A stretch of 64,000 bases of DNA from Synchiropus splendidus. Taxonomy: Eukaryota; Chordata; Actinopteri; Syngnathiformes; Callionymidae. Shown piece after piece: positions 2,640 to 25,640 of this stretch. How positions within the stretch are numbered: the stretch's first letter is position 1; every line of letters begins with the position of its first letter. The notes under the pieces were generated by a model that saw only the letters and a program-made list of their open reading frames with translations, was not told the origin of the DNA and searched no databases. The position numbers were made by a program, and so were the translations under genes. Location of the stretch: contig NC_071335.1 of the NCBI RefSeq assembly GCF_027744825.2, forward strand, positions 29,043,001 through 29,107,000, read 5' to 3'.

Positions 2640-4577
2640 TCACCATTTGTCTAAGTCCATCGATTCATCTTCTTCATCTTTTTCATCTTTTTCATTCATT
2701 CGGGACTCAAGCTCCTTCAAATCTTCCTCCTTCAGCCTTCTCAGCACATTCATATAGTAGTCAAACAATTTCTGTGCAGACTCCTTGGATCTACCGGTAG
2801 ATGTCGTGGCGGCGTGCGTTGAAGGAGGAGTGAGGTCGCTTCCTCTGCTCGGACGATTAGGCATGGTGGGATCTGGACTCTCAGCTCGGGGGGTGGTAGG
2901 AGAGTATTCGTTCCGCTCAGGCGTAACAGGGGTCGAAACTCTGGGGGTATTCGGACGCACCGGAGATGATGTGTTCACAGGATCAGCCGACCCCGAGGAG
3001 GTAACATTAGCTGGGACATCTGTGAGCTGTTTTGAGTCTGGGAAGACAAATTTGTTTTTTATCATATTTAACCCACATTGATGACAATTTTTCAGGACAT
3101 GGCCCTCATATTTACATAGGAGTAGATTTTTGAGAGTTATTACGTTACCTTCACAATAGTTGCAATTTGTTGCACCGGTGTCTTCCGGAGATTTTGATTG
3201 ATCTTTCGGATTTTCTTCATCCGTCTCACCTTCAGTTAGCGAGGTGTCACTCTGCTGTGATCGAGGAAAGGACTGCAGGTGTACGTACGTTGGTACGGAC
3301 ACGGAGGCCCTTGAACGTCTGGGTGCCCTTGGGGCGGGAGTAGCTCCCGAATCCGAGTTAGCAGATGGTCCTGTATCAGACAGACAGTTGTTCCCCTGCC
3401 CAGGAGGCGAAGCAAACTGAAATACCCAACCGCTTCTGGATGTCGCAGCTCTCTCTACCCAGCGTCTCGCCGGATTTGTTCTCCGAGGAAAGGGCCTCCC
3501 ACCGCGCCTAAATCTCTGCTTGTGCTGCTCGAGCATAGCAGGGCGCTTCCAGTCACGTTCTCCCTTCAACACAGCCAGAGCTTCTTTCTCATTTCCGCTT
3601 ATTACCAGTTGGGCAAAATTCTGCCATGAGACTGGTCCTTGAACATGCCACCCATGTGCCGTGGGCACCACTGATCTGCCTTTCAACAACCTTTCGATCC
3701 ACTCATAGTAACCACGAGGGCAAAATCCTCCCTGATAATGGTGTAGACGAAACCCCCCATGCCATAATCTACCATGTTCACTGAGTATCAAGTCCTCCCA
3801 GTCCTCATACACGCTCACATCGTCTCTTAGCCACTGAGTCACCATCAGTAAGTTTGGGTCACGGAGGTGAATCTGGTCCCCTGGACGTCGGTAACCTGGC
3901 TGTATGTTTCCCGGCCCCCAAGGTCTAGCGGGACTAATGAACCCCAAATCTTTATCATACACTTCTCCCACCTGTTCCGTTTTTAACACCATTCCCTGCA
4001 CCACATATGGAGGATGAAATCCTCCCTGTTCAATCCAGGATGTCTGCCCAGGTCCTATAGTACAGTGGTACACCCTAAGGGCGTACGTGGTCAATGGGGG
4101 CAGCTTATCATCCCCTGGGAATGTGAACTCCCAGTGTTCGGCACATACCACTGGAAGCCAGTGTACTAATGGCTCATTCTCCTGGCACATTACCACGAAA
4201 CGTGGCCATGCCTGGAGGATGAACGGGGTCTCTTTTTCAAATGACCACACGATCTTTCTCGTTGGTTTGATTTCGAGGGGCACCCATATCTTTTGGACCT
4301 TCTTTCGGTGATCTTGAGTGACGACGCCGCGTGATACTTTTGCTGTAAATCTCATGTGGGGCTTATTCCTCCAATATTCAATCATTTTGGTGGAGGGTCC
4401 CCAACTAAAAACCCTACGGCGTCCTATGTCTGCAGGGCGGACTTTGGTTTTAGGATCAAGGGGCTCCATGATCACATCCAGAGCTAACAGCACATTCGTC
4501 TCCTTTGTGCCCCATGGATCCCATTGATCCGCCTTGTCGTTCCCGTCCGTAATCACAATTGGGCCCTGCAGAAACAT
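2640..4577 (-). CDS. 645-residue retroviral 3' protein, unrecognised; possible regulatory/accessory protein
   Basis: An intact ORF fills the interior up to the polypurine tract. I do not recognise its family. Residues 1-350 are rich in Trp, Pro and Gly and look globular. Residues 355-381 are Arg-rich (RFRRGG, PFPRR, ARRW) and could bind RNA or serve for nuclear import. A second basic patch is at 417-423. C472/C475 and C498/C501 form two CxxC pairs that could bind zinc, with C488 between them. Residues 525-595 are rich in Ser/Thr-Pro, 598-630 look helical and charged, and 628-643 are acidic. Its place after env resembles that of foamy virus bel genes, but I claim no sequence match. TTTCTGCAG after codon 4 is a good splice acceptor, so the printed start may be skipped in a spliced mRNA. 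Gag and Env are less likely: there is no signal peptide and no membrane anchor. Confidence 0.75.
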   Translation of the reverse strand: MFLQGPIVITDGNDKADQWDPWGTKETNVLLALDVIMEPLDPKTKVRPADIGRRRVFSWGPSTKMIEYWRNKPHMRFTAKVSRGVVTQDHRKKVQKIWVPLEIKPTRKIVWSFEKETPFILQAWPRFVVMCQENEPLVHWLPVVCAEHWEFTFPGDDKLPPLTTYALRVYHCTIGPGQTSWIEQGGFHPPYVVQGMVLKTEQVGEVYDKDLGFISPARPWGPGNIQPGYRRPGDQIHLRDPNLLMVTQWLRDDVSVYEDWEDLILSEHGRLWHGGFRLHHYQGGFCPRGYYEWIERLLKGRSVVPTAHGWHVQGPVSWQNFAQLVISGNEKEALAVLKGERDWKRPAMLEQHKQRFRRGGRPFPRRTNPARRWVERAATSRSGWVFQFASPPGQGNNCLSDTGPSANSDSGATPAPRAPRRSRASVSVPTYVHLQSFPRSQQSDTSLTEGETDEENPKDQSKSPEDTGATNCNYCEGNVITLKNLLLCKYEGHVLKNCHQCGLNMIKNKFVFPDSKQLTDVPANVTSSGSADPVNTSSPVRPNTPRVSTPVTPERNEYSPTTPRAESPDPTMPNRPSRGSDLTPPSTHAATTSTGRSKESAQKLFDYYMNVLRRLKEEDLKELESRMNEKDEKDEEDESMDLDKW

Positions 4578-4590
4578 TACAAAATGTCAA
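4562..4590 (-). promoter_or_regulatory. Candidate splice acceptor ahead of the 645-codon ORF
   Basis: The minus strand reads a T-rich stretch ending TTTCTGCAG followed by GGCCC, with the intron ending at 4566 and the exon starting at 4565. The exon would enter the ORF at codon 5 in phase 0. The donor candidate after 6286 also ends a codon, so the two would join in frame. No transcript data are available here. Confidence 0.5.
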
Positions 4591-5237
4591 TTTTGAGAAG
4601 GTCTACTAACAGCAGACGCCATTCCAAACAACCTAATGTCGTTAGGAGTTTTCCATAATTTCATGGGATAACAGGTCCCCATCAGATAACCTATATAAAA
4701 CATAGAGACATACAAAGAAGTTCCTCCAGCTAACTTTTTGAACAGAATCCATATCATCAGAATTATCCATTGCGCAGTAAGATTAAGTGCTGCCCTTTTA
4801 TACCTCCCCAGGGTTGACCAAATTAATGTCAGCAATAAACCTATGAGTATGAAATATATCGCCGTTCCTGCTATAATGCAATAGGTACACTGAGAACCTA
4901 TGCAAAACAAAAGGGCCAATTCGGTGTACAGACTGTCCAGTACGTATACTATGGTGACCGCGGTCGGCCAAAGCCATGGTCTCTGAGGGCTTAAATTTAA
5001 ACCCGTGCATCCAATGAGGCTGAACGAGGCATGTAAAGGGGATGCTTTTCTAACGAAAAAGCGAATGCACCCTACTATTAATCCGAGGATGCATCCCAGA
5101 CAAGTTTTTTGCTTATGTAATGGAGGAACAAATATTACTTGTAAAATGGACAGTATTGCAAGATCAATAAAATCTGCCCCTACCTGGGGAGGACTCTCGG
5201 GGTGATACCCGGTGGTGTTCGTCTGGTTGCTTGCCAT
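4587..5237 (-). CDS. 216-residue multipass membrane protein of the retroelement, unrecognised
   Basis: An intact ORF starts in a strong context (A at -3, G at +4). It has about six hydrophobic segments at residues 22-40, 45-63, 90-113, 117-141, 152-168 and 173-190. Two N-glycosylation sequons (NQT at 4, NTT at 7) lie in the short N-terminal tail, and Cys residues cluster around 46-57 and 112-120. Basic loops at 63-65 and 145-148 suggest cytoplasmic sides. It is not an Env transmembrane subunit, which has one anchor. Retroviruses rarely carry multipass proteins, so it may be a captured host membrane protein or a lineage-specific accessory gene. I do not recognise the family. It begins 12 bases after the env-like remnant stops and ends about 10 bases before the next ORF. 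Confidence 0.68.
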   Translation of the reverse strand: MASNQTNTTGYHPESPPQVGADFIDLAILSILQVIFVPPLHKQKTCLGCILGLIVGCIRFFVRKASPLHASFSLIGCTGLNLSPQRPWLWPTAVTIVYVLDSLYTELALLFCIGSQCTYCIIAGTAIYFILIGLLLTLIWSTLGRYKRAALNLTAQWIILMIWILFKKLAGGTSLYVSMFYIGYLMGTCYPMKLWKTPNDIRLFGMASAVSRPSQN

Positions 5238-5470: not shown

Positions 5471-5633
5471 TCAGTGTATCGTTCTGTAACATTGTATCAT
5501 TTTGCCATTTAGTCAATCCTTCAGTGATGTCATAAACCAATGCCTTGGCACTGATTAGGATGTATTTTTCTGTTATTATAGTGGTTGTTTCAACCTTTCT
5601 CCATTTTGACAAGTATTTGGCTGAAGGCGGCAC
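5439..5633 (-). pseudogene. env: Env-like remnant: ectodomain segment in another frame
   Basis: This frame carries two NDT glycosylation sequons eight residues apart and a run of Ile/Leu/Val-spaced residues. It leads into the anchor-bearing frame downstream, which fits a glycosylated Env ectodomain near the membrane. It overlaps the end of the Notch fragment and the preceding frame, so the gene is broken on both sides. I cannot point to a fusion peptide, a furin site or a CX6CC motif; those parts seem lost. Confidence 0.38.
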
Positions 5634-5734
5634 TCATCCACATCCTCTGTACAGTGTTGGCCAGTCCACTCTGGAGGGCACTGACAGTTGTAAGTGTTGA
5701 CTCCATCCATGCAAGTCCCTCTGTTAGCTTGGCC

Positions 5735-5774
<40 letters not shown>

Positions 5775-5862
5775 AATCTTCTCTGTTGGAGAAGTAGGTA
5801 ATTTTAAAATTAAGTGATTCATATATTATTATGATGGTGCCGAACACCCATATTAAGGTCAT
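5590..5862 (-). pseudogene. env: Env-like remnant: leader-type hydrophobic segment, then read-through of the Notch insert
   Basis: The frame is open from about 5929. A basic stretch (near WPRKYLRGK) is followed by a hydrophobic run (LIWVFGTIIIIY) and then a Trp/Cys-containing segment. A basic cytosolic start plus one membrane span is how Env leaders with uncleaved or late-cleaved signals look. From about 5725 onward this frame only reads the Notch-derived DNA out of its coding phase. So an Env N-terminal part was probably joined to an Env C-terminal part with Notch DNA in between. The Env assignment is inferred. Confidence 0.38.
5600..5725 (-). pseudogene. notch: Captured Notch fragment (EGF repeats 5-6), out of frame
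   Basis: In a frame different from the env-like ORF, the minus strand encodes about 42 residues with the EGF-repeat pattern. It includes [16 protein letters not shown], then HCTEDVDEC, then a second repeat ending TCQNG. This wording is characteristic of Notch receptors around EGF repeats 5-6. CPPEWTG fits Notch1 or Notch3 better than Notch2, where I expect PPQWTG. The frame is open only for about 50 codons and is closed by stops on both sides (TAA near 5756 and near 5580). No start codon precedes it in frame. It holds no LNR, transmembrane or intracellular part, so it is not an activated Notch. It is a short transduced host segment lying within the env-like remnants. Confidence 0.85.
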
Positions 5863-5966
5863 AAATTTAATCCTGAGGTTTTCCTTATTCGCTTTCCCCC
5901 TCAGGTACTTTCGTGGCCAATACCTTAATCCTTAAGACATAAGCAGGTTGCCTAATTCAAACCTAG

Positions 5967-6281
5967 CTATACCATTTGTCCATTGACTTTTTTCCACTTT
6001 TCTTGCTTGGTGCCGTTTTCCTCCTCCGTCTTTCTGTCCCGTCCAGGGCACGCACAGATTCGTGCCTCAAAACACCTTCTCCCCAGCACGTTACCATCAG
6101 TGGTTTCCTGCGTAAGGATGGTGAGGATAGGCCGGCGATTCATGCCCCCCATGCATGAGCTGTTGCACATGTATGACAGCAAAATGGTCATATGGCGAGA
6201 GCCAAGCTGAGGCGGCTCATACGGCACAGTCACACTATGCCTCTTCGTGTTGGGGTCTTCATAATACAGTGCCAGTTCTGC
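5967..6281 (-). pseudogene. tp53: Captured p53 DNA-binding-domain fragment, spliced copy
   Basis: The frame encodes about 90 residues equal to human p53 positions ~204-290. It carries [20 protein letters not shown], then [18 protein letters not shown], then [22 protein letters not shown]. The zinc ligands equal to C238 and C242 and DNA contacts equal to R248, R273, C277 and R280 are present. The partners C176 and H179, the transactivation domain and the tetramerisation domain are absent. SCMGG and TEEEN point to p53; p63 and p73 have SCVGG and ADED there. It crosses the positions of the human exon 6/7 and 7/8 junctions without an intron, so it derives from spliced RNA. A stop at 6282-6284 closes the frame upstream and no ATG leads into it, so it is probably not made as a p53 protein. 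The frame runs on to a stop at 5967-5969. Confidence 0.95.
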
Positions 6282-6645
6282 TTACCAAAAGTGGCCCACT
6301 AGGCGGCTCGCTTGGGACGGTGCTCATGCTTGTACTTTGCATCCCCAGACCAAATAAGGGCAAAAATGGCGCAGCACAAAGGACACAGTCACCAGGCTCA
6401 TAGTTAGACCAACTAACACTGGTGGTGGGGTGAGTATAGGGCATAACAATCCCTTTTTTCCAGGAATGATTAACACCATCCCAGGCCATGACCAAAAGGC
6501 CATTATTTGGGAAGACTCGGTCGGGGAGCATCTTCACATAGTCCTCCCCAACCCCCTGAACCCAACCTGGCACATGGTCTCGGTCAGCTTCCATCCTGAT
6601 TTTTATACTTAAGTCGTAGTTGCTTGGGGTGGTACCTGTGGCCAT
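6259..6645 (-). CDS. 128-codon ORF overlapping the integrase end, unrecognised
   Basis: The ORF starts 61 bases inside the integrase frame and runs to just inside the p53 fragment, which it reads out of phase for its last few codons. It is soluble-looking, with a Trp-rich centre ([20 protein letters not shown]) and no signal peptide or span. Overlap with the pol end is where retroviruses place vif-like or env leader genes; no match is claimed. After codon 120 the sequence CTTTTG/GTAAGC is a good splice donor, and codon 120 is complete there. The natural product may therefore be a spliced protein whose first exon is codons 1-120, with the last eight codons being intronic read-through. Confidence 0.5.
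6280..6290 (-). promoter_or_regulatory. Candidate splice donor at the p53 junction
   Basis: The minus strand reads TTTTG then GTAAGC, with the exon ending at 6286. It matches the donor consensus at -1 and at +1 to +5. It falls within a few bases of the start of p53 similarity, so p53 sits at the very front of the presumed intron. Paired with the acceptor at 4565/4566 it would excise p53, the env-like remnants, Notch and the 216-codon ORF. Confidence 0.45.
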
Positions 6646-7055
6646 CTTTACCCGTAAGTACGTTCCCTTCGACTTTAACTATAGTGGTAGATTTTCCGGT
6701 GGCGAGTATCCACACCTCACTTCCCATCTGTAACAATACAGAGGGCTCGTGAGAGTGGGCAGGGGTAGAACCCCGTAACTTGGGGAGACTGAGTTGTTGG
6801 TTAATGGCAAAGAGGTTTTCAGGTAAGTGCCATCTGTGCTTATACAGTAGTATTTGTGATTTTGCCGCGCGTACTGCACGTTCCGCGGACTCCGTTAGTG
6901 TTGGATTGATGCGGGATGGATAAGACATGTCGTATCCCTTCCTGCTCCAACCATGAACGAAAGTGCTTGGAAGTGCACACGGCGGCATTATCCATGGAAG
7001 CTCTTCTCGTAAGAGCTCCACCACTTTTTGGCACAACCTCTTTGCTCATTTCCAT
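6584..7055 (-). pseudogene. pol: Integrase 3' part (catalytic core end and C-terminal domain), frameshifted
   Basis: Two overlapping frames together cover the end of a retroviral integrase. The first (7055-6840) holds DNAAVCTSKHF and GIRHVLSIPHQSNTNG, with the second catalytic Asp at 6990-6992. The second (7036-6584) holds AERAVRAAKSQI, with the third catalytic acid, Glu, at 6881-6883, and continues into a C-terminal domain rich in basic and aromatic residues up to the stop. The spacing between the two catalytic codons is 106 bases, which is 35 codons plus one base, so this is the canonical D(35)E core with a one-base frameshift near 6884-6896. Gly of the usual DNG is Ala. The zinc-binding N-terminus, the first Asp and all of gag, pro, RT and RNase H are deleted upstream. 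The fragment cannot be active. Confidence 0.88.
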
Positions 7056-7487
7056 TTTTCAATCTCAGTCAAATTATTTTTAAGGAATTCACTTTACCGG
7101 CTATGAACAGTTTCCCGAACTATGCCGCTGCTTCCTGCTGCAGTTCCCCAGTTGTCCTTAGCGGACTCTTTACCATGGGGTGCCCGTTATAAGGCCTCAC
7201 GGGACTTTTTGCTGTACTTCTGTATTCCAGCTATATTATATAGTTGTACTACAATTACCTTAATACTTTAACTATCCTGCTTGGGGTGATCAGTCCCAAG
7301 GGACAGTCTTTCGGTAAATTGTAGAGTCAACACAATCGTACGTTGTCGAGTGATAGAGCCTGAATCTTTCTCTTTGATTCAAAACTCAGAGATTGTAGGA
7401 TCCATCTATTCACTACCGAACTTTTCCCGCCAGAATTTTAATCTGTGGTCCAGTTACTCACAAATAGATTGTACGTTTTTCAATCAT
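7056..7487 (-). other. 5' untranslated leader of the retroelement
   Basis: This stretch lies between the PBS and the integrase fragment. It has no long ORF. A 5' leader normally carries the packaging signal and the major splice donor. ATGGTAAAGAG near 7160-7175 is one donor candidate. The join to integrase near 7000-7060 marks the internal deletion that removed gag and most of pol. I see no host sequence in it. Confidence 0.65.
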
Positions 7488-7505
7488 GTCCCTGTTCGGG
7501 CGCCA
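7488..7505 (-). other. Primer binding site, tRNA-Lys3 type
   Basis: The minus strand reads TGGCGCCCGAACAGGGAC, an exact 18-of-18 match to the tRNA-Lys3 primer site known from lentiviruses and MMTV. It directly follows the CA end of the 5' LTR. This fixes the element's direction and shows which LTR is 5'. Foamy viruses use the related Lys1,2 site, which differs after the first eight bases. Confidence 0.95.
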
Positions 7506-8083
7506 TGTCGTCGGGTTTAGGTTTTCAAGGTCTTGTGTACAAGGCGATTAGCTATAACATAAGCCGTCCCTAGTTCCAAGCACACTACCTCCCTTTGCCT
7601 CTCTGGTAAAGGGCCCCTCGGTTGGTCAACTCAGTCAGCCTCTTGTTGCGGACACGGTTCTAAAACTATAATAAGCATATCAACTATACCTTATTATATT
7701 GGTGAGTACTGTCGGCGCTTCACTGAGCGGGTTATTTAATTAGCCCGACCTGTTAAGAAACAGGTTCTTGACCTTACAATGCTACACCTTATCGTAGTCT
7801 CTTTACTTAACTTCGTTTAGGGACTCATGATCGGATCCTAAATCCATTCCTTTCAAATAACATTTTCCCCATAAATGCCTAAAACTACCACCTAATCATT
7901 GACACAATAATTCAGGATGGAATAATGCTGCCATGTGAGACACTCATTAAATGTGCAACAGGAGGAAATCAAACAGTAACTCACCTATAACCCAATTGAT
8001 GGTAGTAGGTAGGAGCCAGTTGATTCTTTAGTAGTCAGGGATCCACGCCGTTGTGCCTTTTCAGTACTTAATTCGTACTCAAT

Positions 8084-8089
8084 TTTATT
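8084..8089 (-). promoter_or_regulatory. Polyadenylation signal copy in the 5' LTR
   Basis: AATAAA on the minus strand, offset by 6559 from the 3' copy. In a working provirus this copy must be bypassed, since it lies roughly 515-520 bases after the expected start site. Confidence 0.65.
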
Positions 8090-8632
8090 TTGTTTTTTTG
8101 TCACAAAAATGTTTCTTCAAAAAATTAATAAAAGAATAGTAAAAACAGCAAAGTCAACCAAAAACAATAAAATCCATAAACTCAAGGGTATTGCCAGACG
8201 CTGATACCCAACAATATCAAAAGTACCGCCAGACGCTGGTACTAGTACATATACTTCAAAAACCATATAATCAAAAATACTTCAAAACCATATAATCAAA
8301 AATACTTCAATAACCGTATAATTAAAAATACTTCAAAATCATATAATCAAAAAATACTTCAAAAGCCGTATAATTAAAATACTTCAAAACCATATAATCA
8401 AAATTACTTCAAAAGCCGTATAATTAAAAATACTTAAATCATATAATCAAAATTACTTCAATAAAAAGGATTAATTCAAAAATAGTAAAAGAGAAATAAA
8501 AGATGAGTTGAAATCAAATGGTCCGAGAGCAAACAGCAAGAGCACCGTCCCAAGATAAGATAAAAACTTACGGCGGACAAACGCGGGCGAAGATCCAAAA
8601 AGAGCAAGAGCCCAGGGTCACATCTCCGAGCG

Positions 8633-8640
8633 CTTATATA
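8633..8640 (-). promoter_or_regulatory. TATA box of the 5' LTR (element promoter)
   Basis: GGCTATATAAGCGC on the minus strand, the same as in the 3' LTR. It would drive the genomic and spliced RNAs of the element. GC-rich sequence follows it and the duplicated AT-rich U3 block lies about 400 bases upstream. Confidence 0.8.
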
Positions 8641-9175
8641 GCCACACACGGCTTTGAAGACATACCGACATCCGTTTTCTCACGCCAAGCCAATTAGTCA
8701 TATCTATAACTTATCTTGTTTTTTCTCCAGGTGGCCTTTTGAAGTTCCTCCCTCAAAAGGATACATGGTCGGTGATAGATCATATTAGTGTCAATTGCGT
8801 CAGCACTTACATCATTTTTTACGTCACTGATGCCCGGTTCACCATATTAGGTCAGTACATCCACTCCATTTTGTCAGCACGTGCGCACAGGTTCAAACTA
8901 AGTTCAAGATGGCCGCTTTCTCATGACTTCAAATGAGCGCGCCTTCAAGGTCATTCTCAGATCCAAGCACACAGCTGTTCGTGAGTTCAAACGCGCATGA
9001 TCAAACGCATACAGGTTCACTAAAGTTTGAAACATTAAACAATTAATGATAAAAAATCAGAAACAATATCAAATATTATTTAGCAGGTCCATTAATGATA
9101 AAAAACAGAAACAATATCAAATATTATTTAGCAGGTTTTGATTATAATATTTTCGAACTTCCAGTGTATACAACA

Positions 9176-9180
9176 CAATT
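9176..9180. repeat. 5-bp target site duplication, right copy
   Basis: CAATT, the partner of 942-946. Before insertion the flanks would have been continuous as TTCAATTTAATG. Confidence 0.93.
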
Positions 9181-24766: not shown

Positions 24767-25640
24767 ATGTATCTTTTGAATTCACTGACGTCACATGTGA
24801 TCTCTATGGCATACTTCAATTTATACGTTATTTTCACACTAAACCACAAGAGGCCACTCCAGACCTGTGTTGATAACTTCAACGTTGGCGGTAACTTAGA
24901 AAAACAACTGAGAAGGGCTAAACAAAAATGGCATCGCAAAGAAAAACGAAAAAAGGAAGTCGTGAAATATGCAGCCGAAAATGGGAATCGCGCAACAGAA
25001 AGAAAGTTTGGAGTTAGCGAGAAACTTGTAAGGGAGTGGCGAAAAGCGGAAGTTACTCTTGCTGAAATAAAGAAAACAAAAAAAGCTAATCGTGGGCTAA
25101 GCGCTTGGTGGCCAGAGCTGGGATTCAGGTTCAGAAAGGCTGGAATCATTGGAACTGCCACTGACAAAAATGACAATAGCAACTTAGAAGAGGAAGCGCT
25201 GCATCTTCTACCTCCGGAGTTGTTGACACCGAACATGATGATTTCATTGGATTTTGTGATTTGGAGTCACACTGATGGTTTGGTAAACTTGTTAGCATGT
25301 TCTTTATGCTATAGTTATCTGAATAATTCTTAATATGTTACGTTAACATACCGTTCTCAGTTGGTGGTTTATGCGTCATGTAACGTTAGCACGTCGTACA
25401 CTTCTGTCAGCCTCTCTTCTGTTTATATCTTAAATTGCCTTTCAAGATGGCATGTCTGTTTTTGGTGTTGGATATTTTTGGAATGAATTTCCCCCAAAAA
25501 ATGCAACTTACACTCCAGTGCGACTTATATATGTCTTTTCCTTCTTTACCATGCATTTTGTGCATAATAAAATACGTCTAGGAAAATACGATGCGTTAAA
25601 CACAAACACATCAAACCATAGCATCCAGTGTCTTTTTTAA
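24767..25640 (+). pseudogene. pogo/Tigger-like transposon fragment with transposase N-terminus
   Basis: The ORF 24767-25333 carries KKEVVKYAAENGNRATERKF then GVSEKLVREWRKAE and KKTKKANRG. This is the helix-turn-helix DNA-binding region (Brinker type) that opens pogo-like transposases. The DDE catalytic domain is absent, so the copy was internally deleted. Downstream, 25480-25575 has ACTCCAGTGCGACTTATATA and TGCATTTTGTGCAT, the 3' terminal region of the same family, also seen as a MITE at 60.9-61.4 kb. The first ~30 codons of the ORF look like chance extension. Confidence 0.72.

Follow-up and report, generated by a model that had tools for sequence, protein, structure and literature searches.

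Capture of a spliced tp53 fragment by a multi-copy endogenous retroviral element in the fish Synchiropus splendidus, with putative pieces of further host genes

Acute transforming retroviruses are replication-defective and helper-dependent, and they carry intron-free host sequence that replaces viral genes and is fused to them. Retroviral capture of a host gene is usually seen once, in a tumor, after selection. The element of Synchiropus splendidus described here has the same defectiveness, an intron-free host insert and viral-host fusions, but it is endogenous and present in many copies, and it carries near-neutral fragments of tumor suppressors instead of activated oncogenes. In FeLV, Notch2 sequence has been described in the envelope gene (Rohn et al. 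1996, via PMC3262490). As far as that account goes, the two cases share a host piece of the Notch family captured in a retroviral env. The FeLV genomes are described there as coming from lymphomas and containing the intracellular Notch2 domain, whereas in the fish putative EGF-repeat pieces occur beside those of p53 and PTEN, in a germ-line family that numbers dozens of copies and with no disease known. Fish retroviral elements are also on record with extra open reading frames (ORFs) of a cellular type, namely CNPase and macro-domain ORFs (Basta et al. 2009, via PMC4977317). A 5' gene with a weak macro-domain match is likewise found here; unlike the teleost elements as described in that source, pieces of p53, PTEN, Notch, histone H1 and ribosomal RNA appear to replace parts of env. 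Finally, foamy-like endogenous retroviruses of fish are described as having large genomes, extra ORFs both downstream of env and in the space separating it from pol and, in one lineage, a tRNA-Lys primer site (PMC5512871). Primer type, extra ORFs and size are shared, which is a likeness of layout, and a host-gene mosaic is absent from the description in that paper. The integrase, of which a partial domain from one copy was compared, has its best PDB match in the avian sarcoma virus type (E 3e-5), with foamy integrase at E 0.8. A literature search over titles and the beginnings of abstracts, with subscription journals mostly outside it, gave no report of p53 or PTEN in an endogenous retrovirus, nor of a nested series of captured RNAs. 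Notch2 capture in env and cellular genes in fish retroviruses are already known, and the mosaic with p53 and PTEN appears to be new in the literature searched.

The window, as the whole analyzed stretch is called here, comprises 64,000 nucleotides of contig NC_071335.1 (forward-strand positions 29,043,001 to 29,107,000). The sense strand of the element is the minus strand of the window, and all element features given below lie on that strand. The element is marked as a provirus by its paired LTRs, by a target duplication of 5 bp and by a primer site and polypurine tract. The 5' LTR (7506-9175) and the 3' LTR (947-2616) are 1670 bp each and, aligned to each other, have 1 mismatch in 1670. By eye, the flanks read CAATT on the plus strand at 942-946 and at 9176-9180, the left and right copies of the target-site duplication. 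The primer-binding site TGGCGCCCGAACAGGGAC (7488-7505), which we take to be of the tRNA-Lys type, follows the 5' LTR directly, and TGGCGCCCGA stands in the same place in 10 of 10 sister copies. The polypurine tract CGGAGGGGGA (2617-2626) abuts the 3' LTR and is the same in eight of the ten sisters, the LTR start being undelimited in the other two. Most of gag, pol and env is missing from the window element. What remains upstream, according to the module map, is a remnant that joins the first codons of the 5' gene to a C-terminal part of integrase (6587-7058) and a remnant of ACC3 (6305-6675), an ORF that longer copies have between pol and env. The integrase remnant matches the rve profile at E 0.0016, below the cut-off of that profile, and a PDB sequence search with 7045-6587 gave no match. 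Downstream follow the captured tp53 fragment with three exons joined (6006-6281), the env tail with the env stop, in frame with the p53 piece (5967-6005), TMP, a short, probably viral, membrane-protein-like module (5770-5895; in 44 of the 45 mapped copies, in two forms), 48 nt of 28S rRNA in sense orientation (5727-5774), a putative captured Notch EGF-repeat fragment (5600-5725; best PDB match NOTCH1) and two viral ORFs. These are ACC1 (4587-5237), with 216 aa and several hydrophobic stretches, and ACC2 (2640-4577), with 645 aa and no known family; purifying selection is seen in ACC1 and in the first 225 aa of ACC2. No Pfam family matches the latter, and at E 0.001 it has no homologue among those candidates in the protein collection that share exact short words. 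Elsewhere in the window, a 188-aa ORF on the plus strand (24767-25333) has weak helix-turn-helix matches, with a Brinker DNA-binding domain at E 0.0001, just below the cut-off, and is perhaps a transposase remnant.

The first-pass annotation had proposed an LTR-bounded element that encodes, on its own sense strand, a piece of the p53 DNA-binding domain. Besides the LTR pair, the peptide bears this out. With both strands of 5967-6281 translated, it is found on the minus strand only, in a frame open for 104 codons, and it matches the Pfam P53 profile at E 1.4e-30 over positions 104-192 of 193. The best PDB chains for this peptide, p63 at E 5.8e-40 and p53 at E 1.1e-39, are nearly level, so that the PDB search alone cannot exclude p63. 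The host genes separate the two. Three exons of the host tp53 gene (contig C3, locus L009) match window positions 6277-5991 at 97.2, 96.5 and 97.2% DNA identity, as against a 57-71% match of the host p63/p73-like loci to the p53-piece peptide in the genome search. An origin from p63 or p73 is ruled out by the far better match of the host tp53 exons, in agreement with the earlier assignment to p53. The protein P0001, compared with candidates of similar length in the protein collection, matched 71 proteins. Each of them has a P53 domain, and the best match is from Betta splendens (75%).

The captured piece is spliced. The exon joins near 6207-6209 and at 6096/6097 are crossed without introns, as had been claimed, the host tp53 exons adjoining directly in the window, and the alignment to the host gene shows that the piece derives from spliced host tp53. 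That an LTR element captured spliced tp53 is thereby supported. Three host exons are joined at 96-97% identity in the window and four at 96-100% in copies L017-L019 and L048; away from breakpoints, the p53 pieces are generally about 96-100% identical to the host exons. Farther downstream on C3, exons of host tp53 resemble the tetramerization and C-terminal region of fish p53. At the other end of the piece, DNA similarity to tp53 continues past 6006 to 5991, within sequence shared with env. The last 12 codons of the window frame (6005-5970) are the viral env tail, with a short stretch at the join that p53 and env have in common. In L026, L029 and L031 the env C-terminus closes with a near-identical tail, and in L026 and L029 it also has a hydrophobic stretch.

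The joins can be compared directly with both parents. At the 5' join, env without an insert (L085, L087, L089) reads CACTTAAACGGAGACGT, host tp53 reads AAGAAAACGGAGCACGT and the recombinant L017 reads CACTAAAACGGAGCACGT, with AAACGGAG common to all three. At the 3' join, the sequences are ACCAAGCAG for p53, AAGAAGCAAGAAAAGTGG for the env tail of L026 and ACCAAGCAAGAAAAGTGG for the recombinant; here AAGCA, together with a similar AGAAAAGTGGAAA, is common to env, host and recombinant. Judged from these joins, the switch points would lie at AAACGGAG and AAGCA, as template switching predicts. Among the 45 mapped copies, with up to 2 mismatches allowed, 16 have the 5' join string, 24 have the 3' string and three (L017, L018, L019) have both; neither occurs in host tp53. 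Since both joins recur across copies and are absent from host tp53, one capture is the simplest account. A processed p53 pseudogene, made by a LINE and landed in the element, would also be free of introns, like any copy of cDNA. However, both ends of the piece lie in env at short shared sequence, no poly(A) tract is found in the junction sequences at the p53 3' join, and an accident of this kind would have had to recur for the PTEN, H1, Notch and 28S pieces. The env joins without poly(A) disfavor this origin, which we consider very improbable.

The element is not confined to the window. Other copies, which the first-pass annotation had thought worth seeking, were found when the genome (582.7 Mb in 96 contigs) was searched with the p53 peptide. 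Of the 82 matches, 73 are element copies, 3 are host tp53 exons and 4 are matches to p63/p73-like exons, while 2 are second pieces of copies already counted. The element copies, counted by hand from position and identity, are distributed over 23 contigs and have variable inserts; 45 of them were fetched and module-mapped as elements, the other 28 being judged by the match alone. In all 73 listed element matches, the matched part of the p53 piece has no internal stop, and a copy on another contig is 100% identical in protein to the window piece. The likelihood that the p53 segment is an assembly chimera is negligible: 73 matches on 23 contigs, with variable structures and distinct sites bearing target duplications, and among them the copy identical in protein, rule it out in practice. 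In ten sisters of the window type, the LTR pairs differ by 1, 0, 9, 1, 4, 1, 5, 3, 1 and 1 bases over 1595-1765 positions, two pairs having in addition 32 and 26 gap columns, so that the eleven pairs, with that of the window, show 0-9 base differences. Furthermore, 5-bp duplications occur at distinct sites in eight of these ten, the outer LTR end being undelimited in the other two. The mapped window-type copies are independent integrations, and the near-identity of their LTRs suggests that the element was recently active.

Another arrangement exists on contig C1, where p53-bearing elements form a tandem array at about 39.85-40.2 Mb; around 39.88-40.0 Mb, four pairs of neighboring copies are spaced about 13.06 kb. 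A stretch between two copies of the array (L070) has one LTR match. In one array unit (L069), two gag-like ORFs run directly into an integrase remnant, and no reverse transcriptase match was found in the ORFs of this unit. The first gene of the longer copies is represented there by L069:1361-3022, which encodes 554 aa. Its match to macro domains is weak (Pfam E 0.0027, below the cut-off; PDB E 0.007-0.04), and a comparison of this 5' gene with viral contigs found nothing.

The earlier reading of the element as a capture of p53 alone stands for p53 and falls short for the rest: the window also holds the Notch and 28S pieces, and its sisters hold PTEN, histone H1 and Meteorin-like pieces. In the 45 mapped copies, PTEN is present in 9, H1 in 10, Meteorin-like in 14 and Notch in 24; with up to 2 mismatches allowed, 23 of them have the 48-nt 28S string. 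The PTEN piece extends from the first residue to about residue 100 and matches a PDB chain at E 7.5e-54; it ends near residue 101, which we take to lie upstream of the catalytic loop. The H1 piece has a PDB match at E 1.8e-24 and a Pfam Linker_histone match at E 9.8e-19, the Meteorin-like piece matches Meteorin in PDB at E 2.4e-7, and the Notch piece of L035 (211 aa) matches NOTCH1 in PDB at E 3.4e-58. On these similarities, the PTEN, Notch, H1 and Meteorin-like pieces are most probably captured host sequence as well; the intron-free state was shown at the tp53 exon joins. The 28S piece matches Rfam RF02543 at E 0.0026 in a search with 141 bases, below the gathering score, and an Rfam search over 12 kb gave no rRNA and one unrelated match below threshold. 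Twenty stretches 3' of the env leader, from copies of odd frame length, were inspected by eye and no further host gene was recognized; they resemble env with deletions or frameshifts, the last ~30 residues in L090 excepted. Polybasic stretches are present in the env-like pieces of such copies. Three of the five captured coding genes (p53, PTEN, Notch) are well-known cancer genes, a share that is striking and not what capture at random would predict, but the comparison was made after the fact and famous genes are the easiest to recognize.

The pieces seem to have been added in an order. Nine of the ten H1 copies have the p53 5' join string ahead of H1 (L044 lacks it); the p53 join thus precedes H1, which indicates that H1 was added later, inside the p53 segment. 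The Meteorin-like piece likewise interrupts p53. By eye, and with the host genes left out of the comparison, the H1 and Meteorin-like joins in L038 look similar to the p53 joins. In the H1-type copies, also by eye, the env start belongs to one subfamily and the env-p53 join to another. Over the parts that can be aligned, the LTRs of the C1 array and of the window are 78-84% alike. Taken together, these two observations lead us to suggest that the cassette has moved between subfamilies by recombination. TMP, which precedes the 216-aa ORF, occurs in two forms with about 57-62% and 93-100% protein likeness to the reference (L004 and L013 versus L001); the more similar form is found mainly where a copy has the 28S-Notch piece. 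The two forms are another trace of recombination between subfamilies.

Potential donors of the missing functions are numerous. A genome search with the env leader listed at least 153 matches, and among the matches listed, 41 rows have frames of 1481-1511 codons, two of which are interrupted by a single stop within the match; in the other 39 copies the env frame is open over 1492-1511 codons, in terms of frame length only. By their length, these frames are env lacking an insert. These 39 copies, judged by frame length, may be helpers, and dozens of open env-like frames of about 1506 codons suggest that the parental element was recently active. A Pfam search of the env region gave no envelope-family match, and the env leader found nothing at E 0.001 among the candidates sharing exact short words in the protein collection.

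On the basis of these findings, the element can be viewed as non-autonomous and derived from an endogenous retrovirus that was active recently. During reverse transcription of viral env RNA, the polymerase would have jumped, at short shared sequence, to a spliced tp53 mRNA packaged together with it and returned to env RNA near the end of env, most of which would thereby have been replaced by tp53 exons. In subsets of the copies, later switches would have brought H1 and the Meteorin-like piece into the p53 segment, PTEN beside it, and 28S rRNA and Notch downstream. Env-intact copies could have supplied proteins in trans, and the mosaics would have multiplied by ordinary retroviral integration, because env is presumably dispensable for germ-line movement and such proteins could come from the env-intact copies. 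The window p53 piece would then be passive cargo, with a partial DNA-binding domain, no early start codon and neutral substitutions. We hold it to be quite probable that tp53 was captured by template switching, with later additions, and that the pieces are passengers in a dispensable env, mobilized in trans.

The substitutions bear on the last point. Changes were counted on the frame of the window, with the window copy as reference and tp53 exon 5 left out. Among the unique changes in the p53 piece, 30 change an amino acid or create a stop and 11 are synonymous (30/41), against a neutral expectation of 74% (p 0.86). The protein-altering changes in ACC1 (81/152), ACC2 (91/167) and the env leader (32/73) are far below 74% (p about 4e-8 each), this expectation being computed from tp53 alone and applied to the viral ORFs too. 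The p53 piece compared with the pooled viral ORFs gives p 0.013, and all four host pieces pooled give p 0.0006. The unique changes are few, they are not independent on the tree, and some lie at breakpoints, where ends are misaligned (L026, L029-L031). With these limits, the p53 piece shows what looks like neutral change, counted on unique changes, and the three viral ORFs look constrained; the neutrality of the piece is supported statistically, which is support and not proof. The ratios by mean difference from the reference copy are 0.49 for p53, 0.71 for PTEN, 2.23 for H1 and 0.32 for the Meteorin-like piece, with 0.33, 0.29 and 0.15 for ACC1, ACC2 and the env leader; the Meteorin-like value is no higher than those of the viral ORFs (0.15-0.33). 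Five differences from host tp53 are common to all fetched copies that cover them (40/40, 44/44, 44/44, 31/31 and 31/31). Four of the five are synonymous, which is the pattern to be expected of changes that arose while the p53 gene was functional, in this lineage or in a relative. Of the functions that had been offered, namely antisense or decoy RNA or passenger, the last is the best supported. Nothing observed speaks for a decoy or dominant-negative role, and the substitutions in the p53 piece look neutral.

Retention of the pieces for a benefit at the protein level has to be weighed against this reading. It could be imagined that fusions of the env leader with H1, p53 or PTEN disturb growth control in those cells in which the element replicates, as captured oncogenes do. 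A frame running from the env leader through H1 into p53 is open for 417-677 codons in six fetched copies (L035, L036, L037, L038, L041, L043), and one from the env leader through PTEN into p53 for 552 codons in L023, though not in L022, the other mapped copy with all three. Such in-frame fusions, which may be no more frequent than by chance, and the share of cancer genes count against the passenger reading. The matches free of internal stops, the roles of p53, PTEN and Notch in growth control and the low mean ratio of the Meteorin-like piece point in the same direction. Nevertheless, the unique p53 changes are neutral in ratio, the youth of the copies can explain the missing stops, the DNA-binding domain is only partly represented in the p53 pieces, the PTEN piece presumably stops before the catalytic loop, and the window copy has no env leader and no ATG in the first 30 codons of its p53-env frame (5967-6281). 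We therefore judge a protein benefit to be distinctly unlikely.

The pieces might instead act as RNA, either by making silencing of the element costly, with small RNAs whose targets would include host tp53, PTEN, Notch, H1 and 28S, or by titrating factors away from the host messages. The captured coding pieces are in sense orientation in 45 of 45 mapped copies, the p53 piece is close to the host exons in sequence, and such a role needs no coding constraint and fits neutrality. On the other hand, the window pieces are short and nothing points to their being targeted, and we regard this role as improbable. The antisense role that the first-pass annotation had entertained finds no support in the uniform sense orientation, and an antisense arrangement of the coding pieces is rejected for every mapped copy. 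A wider version, in which the lineage serially collects growth-control fragments (p53, PTEN, Notch) in the env slot because fusions or RNA aid its persistence, for example by damped p53 or PTEN signaling in germ cells or by costly small-RNA silencing, seems unlikely to us.

Under the preferred reading, that of passengers captured by template switching, one genome holds a whole series, from env without insert to p53 alone, then with PTEN, with H1 and the Meteorin-like piece, and then with the rRNA and Notch pieces. The joins are readable to the base and there is no obvious tumor selection, so that the steps of capture, the rules of template switching and the rate of the process would be measurable. 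Furthermore, fragments of p53 and PTEN have multiplied in the germ line. This matters for the annotation of p53 copies in fish, it bears on proposed links between p53 copy number and resistance to cancer, and it raises the question of whether these elements touch host p53.
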